From Bacteroidetes bacterium HGW-Bacteroidetes-1 (GTDB lineage Bacteria > Bacteroidota > Bacteroidia > Bacteroidales > F082), in NCBI GenBank assembly GCA_002842755.1, contig PHDU01000019.1, forward strand, positions 1 through 55,785: a DNA stretch of 55,785 bases, read 5' to 3'. The translations under genes and the position numbers were made by a program. The notes beneath the pieces are model-generated. The model saw only the letters and a program-made list of their open reading frames with translations, did not search any database and was not told the DNA's origin. Below, one piece after another: positions 39,052 to 51,566 of the stretch. Position 1 is the first letter of the stretch. Each line of letters begins with the position of its first letter.

Positions 39052-39939
39052 TTACTCATCCTGAAGTAATTTTTTTGCTTCTGAAAGTCTGAGTAATTCT
39101 TCTTGAGGCAAATTAGGATAAGAAATGTCAAGTTTACTCAAACGATTGACAATGATGTTACTTACAGCATAGCGCATAAACCATTTGTTATCAGCTGGAA
39201 TCACATACCATGGTGCTATTTCGGTGGATGTATGTGTAAGCATTTCTCCATAAGCATGCATATACAAATCCCAATATTGTCGTTCTTTTACATCGGCAGA
39301 GGAAAATTTCCAGTTGCGGGATGGGTCATCAATACGTCGAAGAAATCTTCTCTTTTGCTGTTCTTTTGATATGTTGAGGAAAAATTTAAGTACAATGGTC
39401 CCATTTTCACTTAAATGTTTCTCCATATCATTGATCTGGCGATAGCGTTGCGCCCATAGAGAATCATTGACATCTTCAATTTTCTTAACAGAGGGCAAGC
39501 GCTGTCGAAATAAATATTCTGGATGCACTCTTACAATAAGAACTTCTTCATAGTAGGAACGGTTAAAAATGCCAATGTTTCCACGTTGAGGCATACAACG
39601 GTAAGTTCTCCAAAAATAATCGTGATCAAGTTCCATCTCTGATGGTGCCTTAAAACTATACACCTGCGTTCCCTGTGGATTTAAGCCTGACATTACATTT
39701 TTTATTGTGCCATCCTTTCCTGCAGCATCCATTGCCTGAAAAACAATTAAAATGGAATGCCTGTTATCAGCATAAAGTACATTCTGAATCTTGATTAGTT
39801 CTTCAATATTTTCATCCAGGAGCTTTTCAGCTTCTTTTTTCGTTTTTACTCCAGCAGTATATTCAGTATCAAAATTACCCACTTTGAATATCAATCCTGG
39901 CTTAGCCAATATTTTCGGATCATCTATTAAATTCGTCAT
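39052..39939 (-). CDS. Polyphosphate kinase 2 family protein
   Basis: 295 residues of the PPK2 fold, which phosphorylates nucleoside mono- or diphosphates using polyphosphate. The P-loop AMDAAGKDGT (69-78) and lid segment GIFNRSYYEEVLIVRVHPE are clear. The FNRS form instead of FDRS, together with the short length, resembles the class III type that can use both AMP and ADP, but this is by eye. The enzyme may regenerate ATP from stored polyphosphate. It is a single gene on the minus strand. Confidence 0.9.
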   Translation of the reverse strand: MTNLIDDPKILAKPGLIFKVGNFDTEYTAGVKTKKEAEKLLDENIEELIKIQNVLYADNRHSILIVFQAMDAAGKDGTIKNVMSGLNPQGTQVYSFKAPSEMELDHDYFWRTYRCMPQRGNIGIFNRSYYEEVLIVRVHPEYLFRQRLPSVKKIEDVNDSLWAQRYRQINDMEKHLSENGTIVLKFFLNISKEQQKRRFLRRIDDPSRNWKFSSADVKERQYWDLYMHAYGEMLTHTSTEIAPWYVIPADNKWFMRYAVSNIIVNRLSKLDISYPNLPQEELLRLSEAKKLLQDE

Positions 39940-40192: not shown

Positions 40193-43075
40193 ATGAAAAA
40201 AATTTTACTTGCTATTTTGATGATCCAATTTTATGTTTTTGGACAAGCCTTCTCTCCAAAAGATTGGACGATTGTCGAAACCTATACCATTCCTGGAAAA
40301 GCTTCCGGACTGGCCTGGGATGGTACTTACATATATTTTGGAATATATGGTGCCAATGGATCAAATGTTCACAGTTTCAATCCTGCCACCGGAACCTCCC
40401 AACTTCTTTTCACAAATCCGACAGTTGGCGATTCTTATGGTATGACCTTCGATGGGCAGAATTTATGGATTATTGATAGAGGCTCAACAGGGAATTCCTA
40501 TGCGTTGCAGCTAAGTCTTGAAGGTAATGTGGTATCTCAATTCACCCTTCCCCAGCAATATATGTCAGGAATTGCATTTGACGATGGTGATTTCTGGGTT
40601 TCGAGTTACTATCCTGATCCGGGAGTGATTTACAAAGTATCAAACACTGGCACTGTTTTAGAACAGTTTGCCCCTCCGATGACACAAACATGGGATTTGG
40701 CAAAACACGATGAAACATTATGGATTGTTGATTATAACGGCAATATGATTTTCCGCGTGGATGAACAAGGAACAATGCTCGAGAGTTATCCATCAGTAAG
40801 TCAACGACCATCAGGTATTGTTTATGATGGCAACTATCTATGGGTAGTAGACGGAGCGTTGGGAAGCAACAGTACCCTATATAAAATTGATTTGGGCGGA
40901 GCTGGTACACCCCAGATAGCTATCAGTCAGACGGACTTTAATTTTGGGAATGTAACAGTTGGCACAACCGATCAGATTGATTTCATTGTAAGTAATACGG
41001 GTGAAGCAATACTCAATTTCTCATTTTCTGTTCCTTTGGGCTCTTATGTATTCTTCCCGGAAGGACCTTTTGAGATTAATCCTGGATCGAGCTTAAGTTT
41101 AACAGCATACTGGAATCCAATGTTATATGGCGCATTGCAAGCAACTGGTTATCTTAGTTCAAATGATCCTTTAAATTCAGAAATTGAACTTAACTTTACT
41201 GGTAATGCACTAAAGTCAGGTCCTTTTCTTCAACCTTCTGAAACAGAACATAACTTTGGTAACATCCGAACAGGCGCAAGTAAACAGTGGACCTTGAATA
41301 TTCAAAACTGGGGCGATGCTACGCTTGAAATATACGACATCAATCTTTATGTGGATATCTTTTATCTCAGTGACATGAATACTGTTCCTGTAAGTCTTGC
41401 ACCTCTTGAGATTGTTTCTTTTAAAGTTTGGTTTCACCCTCTCGAAGCAGGTGAGTTTAATTCAAACATGCTTATTTCAAGCAATGATCCTGATCAGAGT
41501 CCACTTAATATTCCATTGTCGGGAAATGCAAACGATATCTATATGCCTGTAGGTGCAACTATATGGCAATATAATATCACAGGTAATTACGATAATAGTC
41601 CGAAGGCAATGATCCATATTCCTGATATCAATGCAGACGGAAAAGGGGATCTGGTTGTTGCCTCAGAAGATAATTACATAAGGGCTTTCAATGGAAATGC
41701 GTCGGATATTACCCAGGTATTGTGGGAAATAGAGATTTATTCAGGTGCAATATATCAGCAGCAAGGGCTCACAAATACTGCAGATATAAACAACGATGGA
41801 TTCTCAGATATAATTGCCGGAACTGCATGGGGCGATCGCTCTGTGATTGCGATATGCAGCAAAACCGGAATCATACTATGGAAGTATCAAACCAATAACT
41901 TCGGAGATGGAGGCTGGGTTTATCAGGTAGATGCAAAATATGATTATAACAATGATGATTTCCCAGATGTTCTTGCAGCAACAGGAGATGATAGTGATGG
42001 CACAGGGCCAAAAAGAGTCTTTTGTCTGGATGGAAAAACAGGAAGCCTCATTTGGAATACGCCTTTAAATGGAGCTGTTTTTTCTGTAATTGGAATTGCA
42101 GATTTTAATGGTGATGGCATTCCTGATGTCATTGCCGGAGCCAGCAATGCTTCCGAAACGCAAGGTAGAGTTGTGGGAATCAGTGGAGCAAATGGTGCTA
42201 TCGCTTGGGACTTTAGCACTTCTGGAAGTTCCGTTTTCGCACTCGAGAAACTCGATGATATCAATGGTGATGGCGTAGCTGATATCATTGCTGGAAGCTT
42301 TAATGGCAATTATTATCTCATGAATCCGGTAAATGGAAGTGTCATTGAACAAGGATATATTGGGAACAATTTAATCCTTAAAATGATCCGGATGGATGAT
42401 TTGAACGGTGATGGTTTTGCAGATATTATCCCGGCTCACAGCGGGTTATCCGCAATTGCAATCGATGGACACAATGGACAACCCATCTGGACTACTCCAA
42501 CACCCGACAAGCCTTGGAATCTTAAACGAATTCCTGATATCAGTGGTGATACCATCAACGACATCGCACTTGGAACGTTATTCCAAAGCAATTATGCAAT
42601 GTTTTTAAATGGTGCCTCCGGTGAGATACTATTTTCTGAAGGTTTTGGTGAAGCCGTTGATGCCATGGGAATACTTCCCGATATGACTGGAGATGGTTCC
42701 TGGGAAATGGTTGCAGGAGGACGCAACGGAAAGCTTGTTTGCTATGCCGGTGGTCCGAACGCAATAACGAACCTGACTGATTTTACTAAAACTGACGTTT
42801 CATTTGTAAGTGCAAGTCCCAATCCTTTCAATGCAAGTACCTTTTTGACCATAATTCCCGATGAAACGGTTCTTTCTTCAGTTTTAATATATAATATTAA
42901 TGGAACAATCATTTGGGAAAATTCAATTATGACTTTTACCCGTGAAAGAAATACAATTGAGTGGGATGGTAAAAACCAGAACGGCCAGGAACAGCCACAA
43001 GGTCTATTTTTTTATGAAATAAAGGCAGGAAAACAAATTGCTAAAGGAAAATTAATCCGATTGGAGAATTTTTAA
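40193..43075 (+). CDS. Multi-domain T9SS surface protein (propeller, choice-of-anchor-D, FG-GAP)
   Basis: 960 residues. A signal peptide (about 1-19) precedes an N-terminal beta-propeller with blades of the GLAWDGTYIYFG / GIVYDGNYLWVVDG type, then two ASPM/SPD-2/Hydin-like domains (FGNVTVGTTDQIDFIVSNTG, FGNIRTGASKQWTLNIQNWG), then FG-GAP/VCBS-like repeats with DxNxDGxxD calcium loops (for example DINNDGFSDIIAGT, DLNGDGFADIIP), and a T9SS type A sorting domain at the end (NPFNAST ... GLFFYEIKAG). It is probably exported and held on or released from the cell surface. The ligand is unknown. Confidence 0.9.
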   Translation: MKKILLAILMIQFYVFGQAFSPKDWTIVETYTIPGKASGLAWDGTYIYFGIYGANGSNVHSFNPATGTSQLLFTNPTVGDSYGMTFDGQNLWIIDRGSTGNSYALQLSLEGNVVSQFTLPQQYMSGIAFDDGDFWVSSYYPDPGVIYKVSNTGTVLEQFAPPMTQTWDLAKHDETLWIVDYNGNMIFRVDEQGTMLESYPSVSQRPSGIVYDGNYLWVVDGALGSNSTLYKIDLGGAGTPQIAISQTDFNFGNVTVGTTDQIDFIVSNTGEAILNFSFSVPLGSYVFFPEGPFEINPGSSLSLTAYWNPMLYGALQATGYLSSNDPLNSEIELNFTGNALKSGPFLQPSETEHNFGNIRTGASKQWTLNIQNWGDATLEIYDINLYVDIFYLSDMNTVPVSLAPLEIVSFKVWFHPLEAGEFNSNMLISSNDPDQSPLNIPLSGNANDIYMPVGATIWQYNITGNYDNSPKAMIHIPDINADGKGDLVVASEDNYIRAFNGNASDITQVLWEIEIYSGAIYQQQGLTNTADINNDGFSDIIAGTAWGDRSVIAICSKTGIILWKYQTNNFGDGGWVYQVDAKYDYNNDDFPDVLAATGDDSDGTGPKRVFCLDGKTGSLIWNTPLNGAVFSVIGIADFNGDGIPDVIAGASNASETQGRVVGISGANGAIAWDFSTSGSSVFALEKLDDINGDGVADIIAGSFNGNYYLMNPVNGSVIEQGYIGNNLILKMIRMDDLNGDGFADIIPAHSGLSAIAIDGHNGQPIWTTPTPDKPWNLKRIPDISGDTINDIALGTLFQSNYAMFLNGASGEILFSEGFGEAVDAMGILPDMTGDGSWEMVAGGRNGKLVCYAGGPNAITNLTDFTKTDVSFVSASPNPFNASTFLTIIPDETVLSSVLIYNINGTIIWENSIMTFTRERNTIEWDGKNQNGQEQPQGLFFYEIKAGKQIAKGKLIRLENF

Positions 43076-43112
43076 GTTTTCAGAAAAGAAAGAATAATTT
43101 ACATACAAATAG

Positions 43113-43160
43113 ATAGTGTTCAAAAAAGCAAAGCCTCACTTTTTTGAACACTATTTTTTA
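43113..43160 (+). terminator. Long-stem terminator after the FG-GAP protein gene
   Basis: A perfect 16-base inverted repeat (43113-43128 with 43139-43154; core ATAGTGTTC / GAACACTAT joined by A and T runs), ten-base loop, followed by TTTTTTA. Very strong in the plus direction, and it marks the left edge of the decayed region. Confidence 0.85.
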
Positions 43161-43250
43161 TTCATTTCATGAAGAATAGATCAGCAAGTTTTGAATTCTA
43201 ATACTTTTGCTGCGATTTAATTCTATACCGCTAAGAACCTTATACACCTT

Positions 43251-44126
43251 ATGAATGTTATTGTAAGTAACAAAAGCAATTATCCCATATATGGGTCAAT
43301 TCATTCCATTCATCAATTTCCATCTGCCTTTATAGAAGAACGACGTGTGGATGTATGGCTACCGGAAGGATTTGATTCCTCTTTGCGTTACTCAGTTATA
43401 TACATGCACGATGGGCAGAATCTTTTCAACCCTGCTTCTGGCTTTCATGGGCAAATATGGGCTATTGATGAAGCGCTTCAACCATTAATTTTTCACGAAC
43501 ATGTAAGACCTGCTATTGTTGTAGGAATATGGAACACTTCGAAACGTTATCAAGAATACCTCCCTGCCCCTGCTTTTGATCTTCTTCCATCTGACATGCA
43601 GGAATATATTAAGGAGGAACATAACAACCCAGATCTTAAATCTTTAAGTGACAATTACTTAAGTTTTATTGTAAATGAACTTAAACCATATATTGATTAC
43701 AAATATCCAACCCTTCCTGATTTGGGAAACACTTTTATAATGGGGTTCAGTATGGGAGGCCTCATTTCAATCTATGGCATTGCTAAATATCCTGAAATAT
43801 TTGGAGGAGCTGGTTGTATTAGTACACACTGGCCATTGAGTCTTCATCTTAATGAATTATCATTTTCCGAACCGTTTATGATTGATCCCTGACTTTCTCA
43901 AAATCTTCCTGATAGTAAAAACCACAGATTATATTTTGATTTCGGGACAGCCACTATCGATGCTTTTTATGAAATACACCAAAATAGAATGGATGAAGTG
44001 ATGAAGGAAAATGGTTATGAAGAAGGAGTGAACTGGATTACAGTAAAAGATGAAGGAGCTCCTCACAGCGAATTAGCCTGGAGAAGCAGGGTTAAAATAC
44101 CTTTAGAATTTCTTTTGAAACAATAA
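43251..44126 (+). pseudogene. Esterase (alpha/beta-hydrolase fold) interrupted by an in-frame TGA
   Basis: The open part (43251-43892, 213 residues) is an esterase-D/enterochelin-esterase-like protein: VDVWLPEGFD, VIYMHDGQNLF, the nucleophile in FIMGFSMGG. The frame then meets TGA at 43890-43892 and continues in the same frame for 77 codons to TAA at 44126. The continuation reads as the normal C terminus (LYFDFGTATIDAFYE, then GAPHSELAWRSR with the catalytic His). Full length would be about 291 residues. The truncated product lacks the His, so it should be inactive. No Cys or Trp context supports recoding. It is the first broken gene of the decayed cluster. Confidence 0.85.
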
Positions 44127-44170
44127 TCAATATTTGTAAACCTGGTACTTAAAAATTTCTAACAAAGAAA

Positions 44171-44368
44171 TTATCCTGTTTCACTTACATGCTTCAAACG
44201 AAGCATATCTTTAATTAAAAGACTTTTGCCATTCATTTGAATGAACCCTTCCTCATTAAACTTTTTCAGAATTCTCATAACCGTTTCAGGACTCATTCCT
44301 GATAGTTCAGCGAGTTCTTTTCGTGAGAGAGGAAGCTCAAACTTATCATTAAGTATGCAAACATACAA
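44171..44368 (-). pseudogene. Remnant of a Crp/Fnr-family regulator
   Basis: 65 codons corresponding to the C-terminal DNA-binding part of Crp/Fnr regulators: FELPLSRKELAELSGMSPETVMRILKKF is the helix-turn-helix (shown here only by key words: LSRKELA, SPETVMRIL). The N-terminal ligand-binding beta barrel and dimer helix are absent; a stop lies immediately upstream and only a TTG could start it. The gene has been cut at about 44368, beside the upstream region of the cytochrome gene. Fnr-type proteins often control anaerobic respiration, which fits the neighbour. Confidence 0.8.
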
Positions 44369-44523
44369 AATTTACATAAAGAGTATTGATATACATCAGC
44401 TTATTATCTGACGAATTACAGAGAATCTCTTGTCGCATACCCATTGTTACTCAAATAACAGCAACTATAAAAAGTAAGATATTTACACAGAATTTATTTT
44501 TAAATCTATTAACGCTTTTCGTT

Positions 44524-45881
44524 ATGAAAACTCAAGTTTTTTACTGTCTTATTCTTATCGGATTAGCCACCTTTTTTATTACTGGCTGTTCAAAAGACAC
44601 AGAAAAAGATCCCAATGTTTTGGGATACGAATCCTGTTTGGATTGTCACACAAATTATGCACATCTGCAAAAGGTATATTCGACTGACACTACTAGCCCT
44701 GCAGGAGGTTGTGGAGGTGAAACTCCTCACTACGAGCCCTTTGACAGAGTGTATATGGGTGGAGATGGATTGTCCGATTATATGAAATCCTCACATGGTT
44801 TGTTAGGTTGTACTGATTGTCATGGAGGTGTTGATAAAACAGGTGACAAGACACTTGCACATTCCGGAGATTTTCTTGCTCATCCTTCAACAAATTACAC
44901 AGAAACGTGTGGTGGATGTCACAACGAAATAACAAATAATTTTTCTACAAGCATGCATAATGGCTTTGGTCAGATGAGGCAGTTTCCTTGCGTAGTGGTA
45001 AAAGTGGTTCTGATGAATTTCATCTGCTGCCACAACACCAAATTGAAGGTTACACTAAAAACTGCGCAACATGCCATGGGACTTGCGGAAATTGCCATGT
45101 GGTAAGACCTCCAATCGGTGGCGGCGGACTGGCAGCAGGACATATGTTTACAAAAAAACCGGATATGATCAATGTCTGTGTTACTTGTCATACTTCAAGA
45201 GGAGGTCATGCTTACTTAGGTGTAGCAGCCGGAACTCAACCTGATGTTCATCTGACAAATTCAAAATTTGATTGCCTGAATTGTCACAGTGGACATGAAA
45301 TGCATGGAGATGGCACAAAAGTTGAGCAACGCTATGCATATGAAGCACTACCAGAATGTAAGGATTGTCATTCAAACAAAGGAGTTCAAAATGATAATCT
45401 GTATCATACACTCCATTGGAATAATCTAAATTGTCAAACTTGTCATTCCTAGGATTACAATAACTGTGGAAGTTGCCATGTTGGAGGCAGTGGTGCAAGA
45501 ATTCCATCCTATCTTGATTTTAGAATTGCAGCAAATCCAATCCCTTCATTAAAGCCAGATTTTAACTTTACGACTGTAAGAAGAACACTAGGCGCCCCTG
45601 ATAATTGGTCTGTTTATGGAGTTGAGGAATATGCAAACTTCAATGCTCTTCCAACACACAATTACACTTCACCTCACAACATTCTTCGTTGGACAAGCAG
45701 GACTCAGGTTGGTCCAGGAGAAGGTTGCGCAACAAAATGTCATATAAGGAATGTTGATGACGTTCTGGTGAATAAAGATTTATTCTTGTTTATGGATGAC
45801 CTACTTGAGTGGGAAGTAGGTGCAACAAGCCATATAACAGTTGACAATAAGCTACCGGCATCCTGGTTCAATAAAAAGTAA
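44524..45881 (+). pseudogene. Undecahaem cytochrome c lipoprotein, broken
   Basis: From the ATG at 44524 a lipoprotein signal (FFITGC) leads into a multihaem protein with ten CxxCH motifs (for example CLDCH, CTDCH, CGGCH, CATCH, CGNCH, CVTCH, CLNCH, CKDCH, CQTCH, CGSCH) and one CxxxCH near the end (CATKCH). Two lesions break it: a one-base deletion near 44980-44988, probably a T lost from a TTT run, and a TAG at 45450-45452 that replaces a likely Gln codon between haems 9 and 10. Repaired, it is 452 residues. Such proteins carry electrons from the quinone pool to periplasmic or outer-surface acceptors. The substrate is unknown. Confidence 0.88.
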
Positions 45882-45932
45882 TAAACTATCAACAATATCA
45901 ATATTAATAATTATTTTTTAAAACTAAAAACT

Positions 45933-46939
45933 ATGAAAAAATTAAATTATCTGGTCATTATTGGACTTTTGTTCGGGCTTCTATTCGTAACATCCTGTAA
46001 AAAAGACGAGAACGAACCTGAAATCAATGAATCTGAGGTTCTTGCAACATTTCTTGAATCGTCTGATTCGCCATTAGGAAAAGATTTTGTTAGTACTGAC
46101 ATGCCAAGTATTATGTCGGCTCAGGAAGTTCATACTCTTAATCTTACAGGAAAAGTCTATATTATAGATTCAAGAGCTGCAGCTGATTTTAATACTAGTC
46201 ATATCGAAAATGCTGTTAATGTACCTATGGCAGAAGTATATAATCATGTCAAAACCATTAATATGGCCAATTATGACAAAGTTGCGATTATATGTTATTC
46301 AGGTCAGACAGCTGCTTCTATTGCATCATTATTGCGCTTGATGGGTTACGGAAAAGTCTGGTCAATGAAGTTTGGAATGTGTGTATGGAACCAAGATTTC
46401 TCTGGGGGATGGAATAATGCTATTGGCGATGCCTATGCAACCCAATTTACAAGCACTGCAACTAATAAAGGTCCAGCTGGTGAATTACCAAATTTAAATA
46501 CTGGAAAAACAACGGGCATGGAAATTCTTGAGGCAAGAGTAAATACATTATTGACAGAGGGGTATGGCAATGGAGTTGCTGCAATTACAAATCAGACTTT
46601 ATCCGGCAATTTATCATCTTATTATATCGTAAATTACTGGCCTACTGGTCAATATAGCGATCCGGGACATGTTTGGAAGCAGTTCAGTATACTCCAAAAG
46701 AGTCAATGAAACTTGCAATGGATTTAAAAACATTACCAACTGACAAACCACTGGCTTTGTATTGTTACACCGGACAGACTAGCTCTTATCTTGCTGCCTA
46801 CCTGCGTCTTTTGGGCTACGATGCCAAATCAGTATTGTACGGAACAAACGGAATGATCTACGATATTATGGTTCAAAACGCTATGACAATATTCAGTGAA
46901 GGAGATATAAAAGGGTACGAATATGTATCTTCAAAATAA
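45933..46939 (+). pseudogene. Double-rhodanese lipoprotein, frameshifted
   Basis: The first frame (45933-46709) has a lipobox (FVTSC) and a rhodanese domain (VYIIDSRAAADFN; active-site Cys in IICYSGQTA). A second rhodanese domain continues in another frame (to 46939), with active-site Cys in LYCYTGQTSS. The join is at about 46670-46680, consistent with loss of one T. Repaired length is about 335 residues. Rhodaneses move sulfane sulfur; a periplasmic double rhodanese beside a multihaem cytochrome suggests a sulfur-linked redox system (inference). The product now ends before the second domain. A hairpin terminator follows. Confidence 0.85.
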
Positions 46940-46957
46940 GTAAAAACTTAACAGTTA

Positions 46958-46988
46958 AAAGGCAGTCATTTGGCTGCCTTTATTTTTG
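46958..46988 (+). terminator. Terminator after the rhodanese gene
   Basis: AAAGGCAG (46958-46965) pairs with CTGCCTTT (46974-46981), followed by ATTTTTG. It lies 19 bases after the rhodanese stop. Confidence 0.75.
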
Positions 46989-47448
46989 ATACAAAATTAA
47001 TTCAGAATTACTGCTGGTGCGTAAAAAATTGATTGCGTTAAAAATCTGTTTTTTTCTTTGAAATACTTATTTGTAATTGACAGTTTAACAATTATTTGAG
47101 TGCTTAATCACTAGTGTCATGTCAACATTAGAGCCTGAGGTTTTTAAGTAATCGCTGCTGATGATGAATCAGAAAGCGAATTCGTTCATTCAAGCGGTAG
47201 AGAAGAATTCAGATTAAAAAAAAAGTAGACGAACTATATTTGATACTATTGTTTTCATGGCAATGGCCGAAACTCAATCATGCAGTCGAAAACCAATTGG
47301 CAGTATCAACCGGCAGCTAATAGTAACAATAACCTTATAAACATAATATATTATTGCAAAATAAGAAACAATTATAATAAATTCGACCCTTGTGACCTAC
47401 TGCATTGGTCAGGTTTATCCTAAAACATGGCATCTGTAAAAAGATAAA
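46989..47448 (+). other. Decayed coding-like stretch, no intact gene
   Basis: About 460 bases without an intact gene. An ATG at 47119 opens MSTLEPEVFK and then stops; shifting the frame by one base continues as VIAADDESESEFVHSS and GREEFRLKKK, and a further shift gives VDELY. This pattern, coding-like residues in successive frames, suggests a small decayed gene. No family is recognised and the remainder is A/T-rich. Confidence 0.4.
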
Positions 47449-48071
47449 ATGGAGATTGACGAAATCTAAAAATCCCACTTTGAATTCAGATCCTTTGGTC
47501 AGAATTTTGATCACCAAAGGGAAAGAATAGTGCGTTTATCCTCTCCTATTCAAAAAAAGTTCGGGAAAGACATTCAGATAAAGTCTATATCATATCGAGT
47601 GTAAATGATGTAATAAAACGAAAATTTGAGATGGCAATATGGATATCAAAATATTGGCTTTTACAATTGAAGGCCCTGAACAATGGAATCCCCTGATAAA
47701 AATTGAGTTCACAATAAAAGATGAAGCTCTTATTAATGAAGTATTTCCTACCTTTACAGTTGAAATGCCAGCTTTAAAACCAATATTGTTTCTTATGAAG
47801 AATTCATTGAAATGGTTAACAATCATCCGGATTTAGCTACTGTAAAAGTACACATGCAACAACTAGGTAACATGGTAACAATAGGATATGTGAATATCTT
47901 GAAGTGCTAATCAACAAAAGTAGTTACCATAACTCCTAATCTACAAGGAGAGACGATATACTAAAAACATTAAAATGGGTTGGAATTGACGACATTGAAA
48001 ATTTTAGCTATTTGCAAGATATCAAGCAGGTGATTGGAATGATGAATAAACCCTTAGTAAAAGAGAAATAA
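47449..48071 (+). pseudogene. Heavily decayed gene of about 205 codons, coupled to CYTH
   Basis: Coding-like sequence spread over frames: MEIDEI, in-frame TAA at 47467, then HFEFRSFGQNFD, then in other frames SDKVYIISSVND, MDIKILAFTIEGPEQWNPL, INEVFPTFTVEMPAL, SYEEFIEMVNNHPDLATVKV and finally LKTLKWVGIDDIENFSYLQD to MMNKPLVKEK and TAA. Order and total length fit one protein of about 205 residues with several indels. The stop overlaps the CYTH start (TAATG), so the two were once translated together. I have an unverified memory of similar uncharacterised Bacteroidota proteins with conserved FEFRxFGQ, EQWNPL and HPDL blocks. Confidence 0.6.
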
Positions 48072-48538
48072 TGGCACAGGAAATTGAACGAAAATTTTTG
48101 GTGAAAGGTGACTTTAAACCCTTCTCAACAAAAGCAATCCGTATTACACAAGGATATCTGTCTTCAGTTGCTGAGCGCATAGTTAGAGTGCGTATTAAAG
48201 GTGATAAAGGCTTTATTACTATCAAAGGAAAAAGTAATGCAACCGGCATAAGCAGATATGAGTGGGAAAAAGAAATTCCAGTCTCAGAAATTGAAGAATT
48301 ATTGAAAATCTGTGAACCGGGGGTCATTGATAAAACTCGTTTTCTTGTAAAAGCTGGCGCTCGCACCTATGAAGTTGACGAGTTTTATGGTGAAAATCAA
48401 GGACTTGTAGTCGCTGAAATTGAGCTTACAGCAGAAGAAGAAGAATTTGAGAAGCCATTATGGCTGGGAGAAGAAGTTACGGGCGATGTTCGCTATTACA
48501 ACTCAATGTTGATAAAGTACCCATTCACGAAATGGTGA
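48071..48538 (+). CDS. CYTH-domain phosphohydrolase/cyclase-like protein
   Basis: 155 residues of the CYTH (triphosphate tunnel metalloenzyme) fold. The N-terminal EIERKFLV is the ExExK signature, and alternating charged strands (RVRIKGDKGFITIKGK, SRYEWEKEIP, VDEFYGENQGLVVAEIEL) line the tunnel. Members hydrolyse inorganic triphosphate or thiamine triphosphate, or make cAMP; small standalone bacterial ones are most often tripolyphosphatases. It is intact in the middle of broken genes and starts within the TAATG overlap with the decayed gene upstream. Confidence 0.9.
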   Translation: MAQEIERKFLVKGDFKPFSTKAIRITQGYLSSVAERIVRVRIKGDKGFITIKGKSNATGISRYEWEKEIPVSEIEELLKICEPGVIDKTRFLVKAGARTYEVDEFYGENQGLVVAEIELTAEEEEFEKPLWLGEEVTGDVRYYNSMLIKYPFTKW

Positions 48539-48569
48539 GAATTTCTTTTGAATTAATACAATACGATAG

Positions 48570-49204
48570 TCTTGTGCATGCATTACAACTATATTAGCTA
48601 ATGGAATAGCCTTCTCAATTCAGATTAAATTCGGCAATTTCACAATGCCATTTTTTGTAGCTTTAGTTGTAAGCTACATGCTAAAGGACAGAATAAAAGA
48701 GCTTGGAAGATATTACTTTGCACATAAACTTGGTAAAAATTATTATGATCACAAAACAAAATTACCCTTGATAATCGGTTTAGAGGCTGGAGTAAAGAGG
48801 CGATGGACTTTATTGATGAAAATAAAGTACCTTTGGAAGTGTTGAAATACCGGAACAGATCAGCTATTCTTGAGGCCTACGACAGAAATAATGATGAAAA
48901 AATAATTCTTTACCGAAAATTAGTAAGCCTTAAACGTAAAAGTCTTGATGAAGTAAGTGAATATGCAACCACAGGTATCAATGACATTTTGAGATTTAAT
49001 GTCACAAGTTTTACGGCTAAAATGGATAACCCTGAAGTTCTGTTATTTGTTTTAAATGAGAATGAACAATATGGGATCGTAAATGCCGAAAAAATATACT
49101 TCATGAACCTGTTGATACAGTTGAAAAATGAAGACCAGCTTGAATACCGTCGTTATCGAATCATCTTTAATCGTGATGGTATTAAGGAAATTGAAACGTT
49201 ATGA
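48570..49204 (+). pseudogene. C-terminal remnant of a membrane protein
   Basis: An open stretch from 48570 reads ILANGIAFSIQIKFGNF and then a hydrophobic segment (PFFVALVVSYMLKDRIKELG), and after a one-base frameshift near 48750-48790 continues as GWSKEAMDFIDENKVPLEVL to RYRIIFNRDGIKEIETL. These join into a membrane segment followed by a cytosolic domain of about 190 residues. The N-terminal half is missing: a stop lies in frame at 48567. The family is not one I can name. The stop overlaps the start of the next gene (ATGA at 49201-49204). Confidence 0.65.
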
Positions 49205-50382
49205 AAAATTCTTTGACTTTGGAAACTTCCACAAAATTGTACCTTTTTTTTTCACTTGTTCTTGTTTTAAACTTGTTTGCGCAATCAGAGAAAGTTCATG
49301 CGCAGCATGATAATTCGCAATTTATTACATTAACAGCAATCGTTAGACTTCCTATTGTTTTAAAAGAAAGCTCAGGTATTATTGTTTCACACCCTAATCG
49401 AATCTGGTCACATAACGACTCCGGAAACGACAACGAAATTTATTGTTTTGATACTACGGGTATTCTAATACGTACTGTTGAAATAACAAATATTGCAAAT
49501 ATTGACTGGGAAGATTTAGCAACAGATACAGAAGGAAGAATTTTTATCAATGATGCAGGCAATAACAACAACAACCGCACTGATCTTGCTATTCATGTTA
49601 TAGCCAATCCTGAAGAATTCGCTTCGAATACAATACAGGCTTCAACAATTCATTTTACATTGAATGACCAAGTCGCATTTCCGCCACCATTATATAACAG
49701 AAATTTTGATATAGAAGGAATCGCGTGGCACAATGATTCATTGCTTCTTTTTACAAAAAACAGAAGCACCCCAATGAACGGTTATTGCAAAATGTATCGT
49801 CTTTCGCAAAATCCTGGAATTCAAACAGCCTTTCTTATTGATTCCGTTTATCTCGGATCTGCAAATAGTGATGCTCAAGTTACTGCAGCTTCAATTAATC
49901 ATGCTACCAAAGATCTGCTTTTGCTGACACAAACTAAAATAATTGCTTTTAAGCACCCTCAAGATGGCAATTACTTTAAAGGTTTAAAGACAGTCTATCC
50001 CTTTTCGTTTCTACCAGGACAAGTTGAATCAATTGATTATGTGGACGATTTCAAAGTATATATTAGTGAGGAAGGTGATTCAAATCAATCAGGATATCTT
50101 TATAAAGTGGACTTGCCAGATGCAACTGGTCTGTCAGCCAATTTTGAGAACATTAGTTTTACGAAAAAAATAATTGACCAGTTTCTATTCATTGCACTTA
50201 ATAACCCTGAAGATCAAATCAATCGCCTTGAAATCTGCAATATAAACGGTGTTGCAGTTGTAATAAGCCCCAGAAACAATCAAAGTATAAATCTGTCTAA
50301 CCTACCAAACGGCATTTATATTCTGAAGATTTTTTTCAACAAAGGGATTTTAACCGATAAGATTGCGATCTTCCATTCATAA
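49201..50382 (+). CDS. T9SS-sorted beta-propeller protein
   Basis: 393 residues. A long signal peptide (about 1-34, ending near VHAQ) is followed by beta-propeller-like repeats: SSGIIVSHPNRIWSHNDSGN, EIYCFDTTGILIRTV, IANIDWEDLATDTEGRIFIN and DIEGIAWHNDSLLLFTKN. The C terminus (INRLEICNINGVAVV to GIYILKIFFNKG) is a T9SS type A sorting domain. It should cross the outer membrane by T9SS and be attached to or released from the surface. Its ATG overlaps the stop of the membrane-protein remnant. It is intact, marking the right edge of the decayed region. Confidence 0.85.
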   Translation: MKNSLTLETSTKLYLFFSLVLVLNLFAQSEKVHAQHDNSQFITLTAIVRLPIVLKESSGIIVSHPNRIWSHNDSGNDNEIYCFDTTGILIRTVEITNIANIDWEDLATDTEGRIFINDAGNNNNNRTDLAIHVIANPEEFASNTIQASTIHFTLNDQVAFPPPLYNRNFDIEGIAWHNDSLLLFTKNRSTPMNGYCKMYRLSQNPGIQTAFLIDSVYLGSANSDAQVTAASINHATKDLLLLTQTKIIAFKHPQDGNYFKGLKTVYPFSFLPGQVESIDYVDDFKVYISEEGDSNQSGYLYKVDLPDATGLSANFENISFTKKIIDQFLFIALNNPEDQINRLEICNINGVAVVISPRNNQSINLSNLPNGIYILKIFFNKGILTDKIAIFHS

Positions 50383-51100: not shown

Positions 51101-51128
51101 TTGTTTATACTTTAATTTGATATCTTTG
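51101..51128 (+). promoter_or_regulatory. Promoter for tRNA-Arg
   Basis: TTG (51101-51103) and TATCTTTG (51121-51128) are separated by 17 bases and end 25 bases before the tRNA. Confidence 0.55.
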
Positions 51129-51153
51129 CAGCCGCAATAAAAAATCCAGTTAT

Positions 51154-51230
51154 GGTCTCGTAGCTCAGCTGGATAGAGCAGCAGCCTTCTAAGCTGCGGG
51201 TCGTGGGTTCGAATCCCGCCGGGATCACCA
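51154..51230 (+). tRNA. tRNA-Arg (TCT anticodon)
   Basis: A 77-base cloverleaf: acceptor GGTCTCG with CGGGATC (G2-U71 and U5-G68 wobbles), D arm GCTC/GAGC, anticodon loop CTTCTAA with TCT, T arm CGGGTTCGAATCCCG-like and an encoded CCA (51228-51230). It reads AGA and AGG arginine codons. The anticodon stem is well paired. Confidence 0.92.
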
Positions 51231-51249
51231 AAAATTGAGTAAAGTGCAG

Positions 51250-51288
51250 AAAATCAGTAAAAACAGTACGTTTTTCCTGATTTTTTTT
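51250..51288 (+). terminator. Terminator after tRNA-Arg
   Basis: AAAATCAG and AAAAAC (51250-51264) pair with GTTTTT and CTGATTTT (51270-51284) with one mismatch between the two blocks, followed by more T to 51288. Confidence 0.75.
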
Positions 51289-51566
51289 GCTGCTTATAGA
51301 ATTATTGAATTCAATTATATACTCATAAATCATGTTGTAAAAATTTGAATAACTGACAGTTAAATGAAAACCCATACATATACCTGATGTCTAATATAAA
51401 GGGGTTGTAAAGGATGTCAGCGTTGATGAAGTTTCAGATAAGAGAGCCAAAGCTATTCAGTATACACAAAGCTGGTAATCAAGAAAATCTTTTCCTTTTA
51501 ATGAAAAGTTTGCTTAAGTTTGTGACTCATAGTATTAATTGAATTTAACGTTTTAATAGCCTTAAA
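51289..51566 (+). other. Intergenic stretch between tRNA-Arg and the 141-residue gene
   Basis: About 280 bases with no intact gene. A short frame (reading YKGVVKDVSVDEVSDKRA and stopping at TGG-TAA, about 51393-51472) looks coding-like and may be the end of a lost gene, but it is too short to assign. Otherwise nothing. Confidence 0.35.

Follow-up and report, generated by a model that had tools for sequence, protein, structure and literature searches.

In Geobacter sulfurreducens, the extHIJKL cluster contains a gene for a rhodanese-family lipoprotein together with one for a multihaem cytochrome, and the paper on this cluster states that such rhodaneses are typically tied to sulfur metabolism and that deletion of extI impairs selenite and tellurite reduction (PMC6148476). 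A further paper recounts a study in which cells without the porin ExtI took up selenite less well and the rhodanese was mislocalized (PMC8981825). The extHIJKL cluster is the nearest described parallel of a redox gene set whose remains lie in a ~6 kb island at positions 43251–49204 of contig PHDU01000019.1 (assembly GCA_002842755.1, from an uncultured bacterium; Bacteroidales, family F082). The window, which is the whole stretch of this contig that we analysed, comprises 55,785 nucleotides. With a probability of about 0.8, we read the island as a two-layer gene graveyard, in which the old remains of a phosphate operon lie together with a recently broken redox module and a single gene, encoding a CYTH-domain protein, has been kept. 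On this reading the locus has undergone genome erosion of an ordinary kind, which came in two stages and spared a single gene.

Lesions were called by frameshift-aware alignment of intact orthologues from related genomes to the window, and were read from the assembled sequence alone. The relatives searched included the eight congeners of the window genome (G001 and G003–G008 among them) and, for the cytochrome, 173 genomes of the family with the window's own, with five reference sequences each for the Crp/Fnr regulator, cytochrome, rhodanese and CYTH genes, four for a gene encoding a 215-residue protein (p215) and two for one encoding a 484-residue protein (p484). Six genes, those for the esterase, regulator, cytochrome, rhodanese, p215 and p484, are disrupted in the window and have open orthologues in relatives. 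The features are listed below, with the number of agreeing references in brackets.

40193–43075, plus strand: left flank, intact gene for a 960-residue protein with a type IX secretion system (T9SS) tail; open reading frame (ORF)
43251–44126, plus strand: esterase (PF00756), in-frame TGA at 43890–43892, otherwise full length; alignment and profile
44171–44368, minus strand: C-terminal helix-turn-helix scrap of a Crp/Fnr regulator, 173–184 N-terminal residues gone; alignment (5/5) and profile
44524–45881, plus strand: decahaem c-type cytochrome, broken by a single −1 frameshift (near 44980) and by a TAG (45450); alignment (5/5)
45933–46939, plus strand: double-rhodanese protein, single −1 frameshift near 46674; alignment (5/5) and profile
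47218–47334, plus strand: remnant of an LTD-domain lipoprotein, 39 codons; match at E 6e-6 to 3e-3
47440–48068, plus strand: ruin of p215, a conserved protein without known function, four −1 frameshifts and three stops across 201–207 codons; alignment (4/4)
48071–48538, plus strand: CYTH-domain protein (PF01928), frame intact across 155 codons, sole whole gene in the island; profile and alignment (5/5)
48570–49204, plus strand: C-terminal part of p484 from residue 276, −1 frameshift near 48759; alignment (2/2)
49201–50382, plus strand: right flank, intact gene for a 393-residue T9SS-tailed protein; open frame, homologue after p484 in G006

A first-pass annotation of this DNA, made from its letters, had described damage at six neighbouring loci, and each lesion that it named is confirmed by these alignments, to which we add the frameshift in p484 and the LTD scrap. 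It was also right that the CYTH gene is intact and that the flanking frames are open. The esterase stop was shown by a dedicated alignment, and open close homologues of this gene are present in 8/8 congeners. Only the last 57–59 residues remain of a regulator that has 231–243 residues in the references, and ~275 N-terminal residues of p484 are gone; the intact p484 of G006 has one hydrophobic stretch, at residues 269–292. The window cytochrome still has ten of ten CXXCH motifs, and the double rhodanese retains both CYxGQ loops. CYTH proteins carry an ExExK motif near the N-terminus, and the window protein, which scores 54.0 bits against PF01928 (curated cut-off 23.2), has a matching EIERK at residues 4–8. 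Searches of solved structures returned no match for the cytochrome or p484, and the best match of p215 (E 0.76) was not credible. A second copy of the cytochrome (142-residue query), p215 or p484 was not found in the window genome, and for the latter two this leads us to reject the idea that the lost genes were merely relocated.

The damage appears to be of two ages. We determined, for residues invariant among the intact relatives, the share that is changed in the window. This share is 28–30% in p215 (32/116, 34/118 and 35/117 in three alignments) and 15% in p484 (17/117); the cytochrome (16/226), rhodanese (7/107), esterase (6/132 and 7/133) and CYTH (5/98) all lie at 5–7%, and the first three of these look as constrained as their intact relatives. 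Intact genes left out singly gave 1–11% for p215 and 0–18% over all genes, with the rhodanese of G020 at the top; p215 exceeds this range, whereas p484 falls within it. In a codon model with a neutral stretch added on the window branch, p215 received a stretch of 0.25 substitutions per codon (twice the gain in log likelihood, 2ΔlnL, 9.0), the cytochrome 0.005, and the rhodanese and esterase the lower bound (2ΔlnL about 0). The summed lnL of these last three genes drops by ~1.1 at 0.02 and by ~3.4 at 0.05 in the codon-model profiles. The density of lesions agrees with two ages: p215 has seven in ~207 codons, while the esterase, cytochrome and rhodanese together have four in ~1,066. To judge from these comparisons, p215 is old decay, and the cytochrome, rhodanese and esterase seem to have broken recently, or in part not at all, since they carry one or two lesions each in an otherwise constrained sequence. 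The substitution data of p215 lead us to place the phosphate layer first: p215 fell first, probably together with the phosphate operon, and the redox set would have followed recently. The first-pass annotation had suggested recent loss for the island, which suits the esterase, cytochrome and rhodanese but not p215, which decayed much longer ago.

The island is also exceptional in its coding coverage. We examined 201 six-kb segments, from the whole contig and from the sufficiently long ones among 20 other stretches of this genome. The fraction of the island covered by ORFs of 100 residues or more is 0.56, and the six lowest of the 201 segments start at 42001–47001, have values of 0.54–0.61 and all overlap it. 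The 189 segments away from the island have a mean coverage of 0.89 and a minimum of 0.69, and because coding coverage is thus normal elsewhere in the genome we reject general sequencing error, against which the first-pass annotation had also argued. All seven frameshifts scored as single-base losses, which it had proposed for most, with the position of one shifting by up to 9 bases between references; however, the link to short runs that it drew is weak, since a run of at least three is found no more than 5 bases away from 6/7 (60% of random positions) and a run of at least five near 1/7 (10% of random positions). A chimeric contig is unlikely because the best relatives of the esterase are congeners (its eight best other matches are the eight congeners) and because p484 and the right-flank gene adjoin in the same order in G006. 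CYTH has its best E-value in G046, from another family of the order (79%), followed by G005, G006 and other congeners, and its highest identity in G006 (81%).

A comparison of gene order with relatives, suggested in the first-pass annotation, yielded intact orthologues and the operon layout. The regulator (minus strand), cytochrome (plus) and rhodanese (plus), which sit between the esterase and p215 in the window, have the same layout in five genomes of the family where all three are open (G026, G193, G194, G028 and G020). The first-pass annotation was right that these three genes form a redox set, but the island as a whole is not one such system, as the esterase, p215, CYTH and p484 belong to a phosphate/anion operon in congeners. 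The cytochrome query matched in 7/173 family genomes, the window's own included, and in 0/8 congeners. The sixth other genome with a match, G015, has a heavily frameshifted copy (L049, 2000–3400; 18 or 19 frameshifts, at most one stop), whose codon identity is normal at 65–68% and which looks like sequence error and not decay.

A search of public contigs found 146 stretches that encode a relative of the cytochrome, and the counts that follow refer to the best 80 of these 146. All 80 are metagenome-assembled genomes, mostly from Bacteroidales/Bacteroidetes, Ignavibacteria and Kapabacteria; a few come from other groups. Ten CXXCH motifs are present in 79/80 cytochromes and nine in the remaining one. 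A rhodanese lies within 4 kb in 76/80 loci and a Crp-type regulator nearby in 59/80, with 60 of 66 regulator ORFs on the opposite strand; rhodanese, regulator or both are missing in 24/80, some of which may lie at contig ends. Clustering at E 1e-10, which could miss divergent porins, showed no additional family present at more than 6/80 loci. N-termini that look lipoprotein-like by eye, together with ten haems and two rhodanese loops, suggest a role in periplasmic or surface electron transfer tied to sulfur or chalcogen compounds. Literature searches found no published description of a decahaem-cytochrome/double-rhodanese module, and this electron-transfer set is widespread and may be undescribed. 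More tentatively, and at somewhat less than even odds, the island may preserve what is left of a widespread electron-transfer system not described before, made up of a divergent Crp regulator, a decahaem cytochrome and a double-rhodanese lipoprotein and found in Bacteroidota, Ignavibacteria and Kapabacteria. On the cell surface it would act on chalcogen oxyanions or reduced sulfur, and it would come and go next to a phosphate operon whose CYTH gene outlives its partners. As a separate observation, a gene for a ~304–310-residue protein with a ferredoxin-like cysteine cluster (by eye) lies close to the rhodanese gene of G026 and adjoins the esterase–CYTH pair of G011 (L091 11050–11961, L044 5455–6387).

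In most congeners, the phosphate/anion operon is seen, with the order esterase, PhoU_div, PiT phosphate transporter, OprO/P porin, LTD lipoprotein, p215, CYTH, DASS symporter and p484, and several congener contigs end within it. The esterase adjoins PhoU_div in 6/8 congeners (G003–G008) and p215 adjoins CYTH in 7/8 (all except G001). PhoU_div, PiT, porin and DASS have no match anywhere in the window, where the LTD gene is reduced to its scrap, p484 is without its N-terminal half and p215 is decayed. Elsewhere in the genome there are two DASS-family genes, 23–27% identical to the operon DASS, and two PiT-family genes, one 28% identical to the operon PiT and the other without a match at 1e-5. 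These distant genes, too, speak against relocation of the operon genes; given the PiT genes, phosphate uptake is probably not wholly lost. We viewed the surroundings of CYTH in 20 family genomes of other genera, a subset of the family matches, by tblastn at 1e-6, which could miss divergent partners. Porin, LTD, p215 and DASS lie near CYTH in 5/20, one or two partners only (esterase, p215, p484 or a 390-residue gene) in 6/20, and no operon partner was found in 9/20; of these nine, two have CYTH less than 250 bases from a contig end and one has an uncounted opposite-strand LTD match. The esterase lies directly beside CYTH in G001, across a gap of 284 bases in which no query protein matched, and the two genes are also neighbours in five genomes from outside the genus (G011, G015, G016, G026 and G029). 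We had first read G001 as the end state of loss, a view weakened by these five. The part of the operon from PhoU_div to DASS occurs whole or in part in several genera (L050 249–10725; L085, L097, L099, L102, L106 and L107) and carries one or two copies of p215, which has no Pfam match. Literature searches found no published description of a phosphate operon with CYTH and a 215-residue protein. A gene for a PPK2-family polyphosphate kinase lies at 39052–39939 of the window (minus strand), ~8 kb before the surviving CYTH.

The congener G003 provides an independent witness. Between its esterase and PhoU_div genes it has a regulator scrap on the strand opposite to the esterase, as in the window, which is 82% identical to the window scrap over 168 bases with an alignment score of 151, compared to 28–49 against the intact regulators of the five other genomes and a maximum of 28 in 100 shuffles. 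The first-pass annotation would have been refuted by relatives that share the broken forms and keep them under strong purifying selection; this was not seen, as the only shared form, this scrap, is itself interrupted by one or more in-frame stops. No match to the cytochrome piece exists in G003, and neither the cytochrome nor the rhodanese matches the G003 contig stretch. The assembly is 93% complete with 9% estimated contamination. In G006, a close relative of G003, no regulator was detected in the 296-base spacer. The scrap shows decay at this locus outside the window's assembly and thus backs real decay there, not the individual lesions.

We propose that a phosphate/anion operon once stood at the locus, from which PhoU_div, PiT, porin and DASS would have been deleted, and that a Crp-regulated module of decahaem cytochrome and double rhodanese lay just after the esterase, where G003 has its regulator scrap. 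The phosphate layer would have been lost first, with the cytochrome, rhodanese and esterase disabled later and recently, presumably by relaxed selection and drift. CYTH alone would still be under purifying selection, presumably since its product is able to function by itself; at nine of the 20 other family loci no other operon gene was found near it. Several points weigh against this proposal. The window p484 is no more altered than the intact p484 of G006 (20/137, 15%). Intact CYTH receives a neutral estimate of 0.11 (2ΔlnL 1.6, not significant), above the values of the freshly broken genes, and p484 one of 0.05 (2ΔlnL 0.7, not significant), which indicates that the neutral-stretch model is coarse and resolves little below that level. 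Synonymous sites are saturated, which spoils the two-ratio branch model of nonsynonymous to synonymous rates (dN/dS); this check, named in the first-pass annotation, was run and gave little information, and the neutral-stretch model and conserved-residue counts were used for this reason. The cytochrome is open in only five other family genomes, none a congener, so that the module may be ancestral or acquired. The esterase–CYTH pair of G001 may reflect loss or an older state, and in view of the adjacency in other genera the phosphate cassette may have been inserted between the two genes in this genus. Furthermore, the fresh lesions (two nonsense codons and two single-base frameshifts in three genes) come without detectable relaxed selection, as recent loss and error both predict.

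It could be that only the older ruins are real, and that the esterase TGA, the two cytochrome lesions (frameshift and TAG) and the frameshift of the rhodanese arose as errors of sequencing or assembly, or are variants of a minor strain that the assembler chose. This would fit the lack of excess change at conserved residues and of a neutral stretch in the three genes, as well as the retention of all haem motifs and both rhodanese loops, and the G015 cytochrome indicates that error-ridden sequence occurs in such genomes. However, two of the four fresh lesions are nonsense codons, without indels, the neighbouring regulator is short by 173–184 residues and not by one base, the six segments of lowest coding coverage are the island's, and G003 shows decay of the same module, though with the contamination given above. 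We consider this explanation unlikely.

The adaptive loss raised in the first-pass annotation, with selection favouring inactivation of the redox module (and of the phosphate operon), seems to us quite improbable: the module shows decay both in the window genome and in its congener G003, but its patchy retention in the family fits simple loss of use, and loss of use with drift explains the data, which do not separate selection for loss from relaxed selection. That the genes are still expressed through readthrough and frameshifting is hardly credible. The cytochrome, rhodanese and esterase do appear constrained both before and after their breaks, but the breaks are absent from relatives (cytochrome and rhodanese open in 5/5 references, the esterase in all eight congeners), the regulator is truncated and p215 is clearly decayed.

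Two further features lie around the island. Between the 960-residue gene and the island, at 43115–43160 of the window, a long inverted repeat followed by T's looks terminator-like by eye. Beyond the right flank, an ORF at 51112–51375 (minus strand) overlaps the tRNA-Arg gene at 51154–51230 of the opposite strand and is probably spurious.

Read as erosion in two stages, the island is a snapshot of a process in which the surviving CYTH serves as an internal control and the module of G003 has decayed further, and it could help to date gene loss. Two conserved gene sets also come to light here: the phosphate operon that includes CYTH and p215, and the module of decahaem cytochrome and double rhodanese. 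Like other degraded operons and pseudogene clusters of bacteria, the island combines frameshifts, nonsense codons, truncations and missing genes, with orthologues open elsewhere; it differs in that two functionally unrelated sets of different decay age are interleaved and one gene is whole. With extHIJKL, the redox set shares a rhodanese with a lipoprotein signal (by eye) beside a multihaem cytochrome (76/80 loci), but here the cytochrome has ten haems, the rhodanese is double and a divergent Crp-type regulator accompanies them. We do not count the module as a member of the extHIJKL type because the clustering described above showed no further family in more than 6/80 of its loci. The DmsE decahaem cytochromes (TIGR03508) likewise have ten CXXCH motifs and give a weak profile match, whereas the window-type cytochrome, of ~450 residues with an extra CX3CH motif, scores 20.9 bits against a curated cut-off of 192.2. 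Finally, PhoU_div (PF01865), PiT (PF01384) and the OprO/P porin (PF07396) are adjacent in the congeners as in PiT/PhoU_div uptake sets, but the congener operon adds CYTH, p215, the LTD lipoprotein, DASS and p484, and in the window this larger set is mostly gone.

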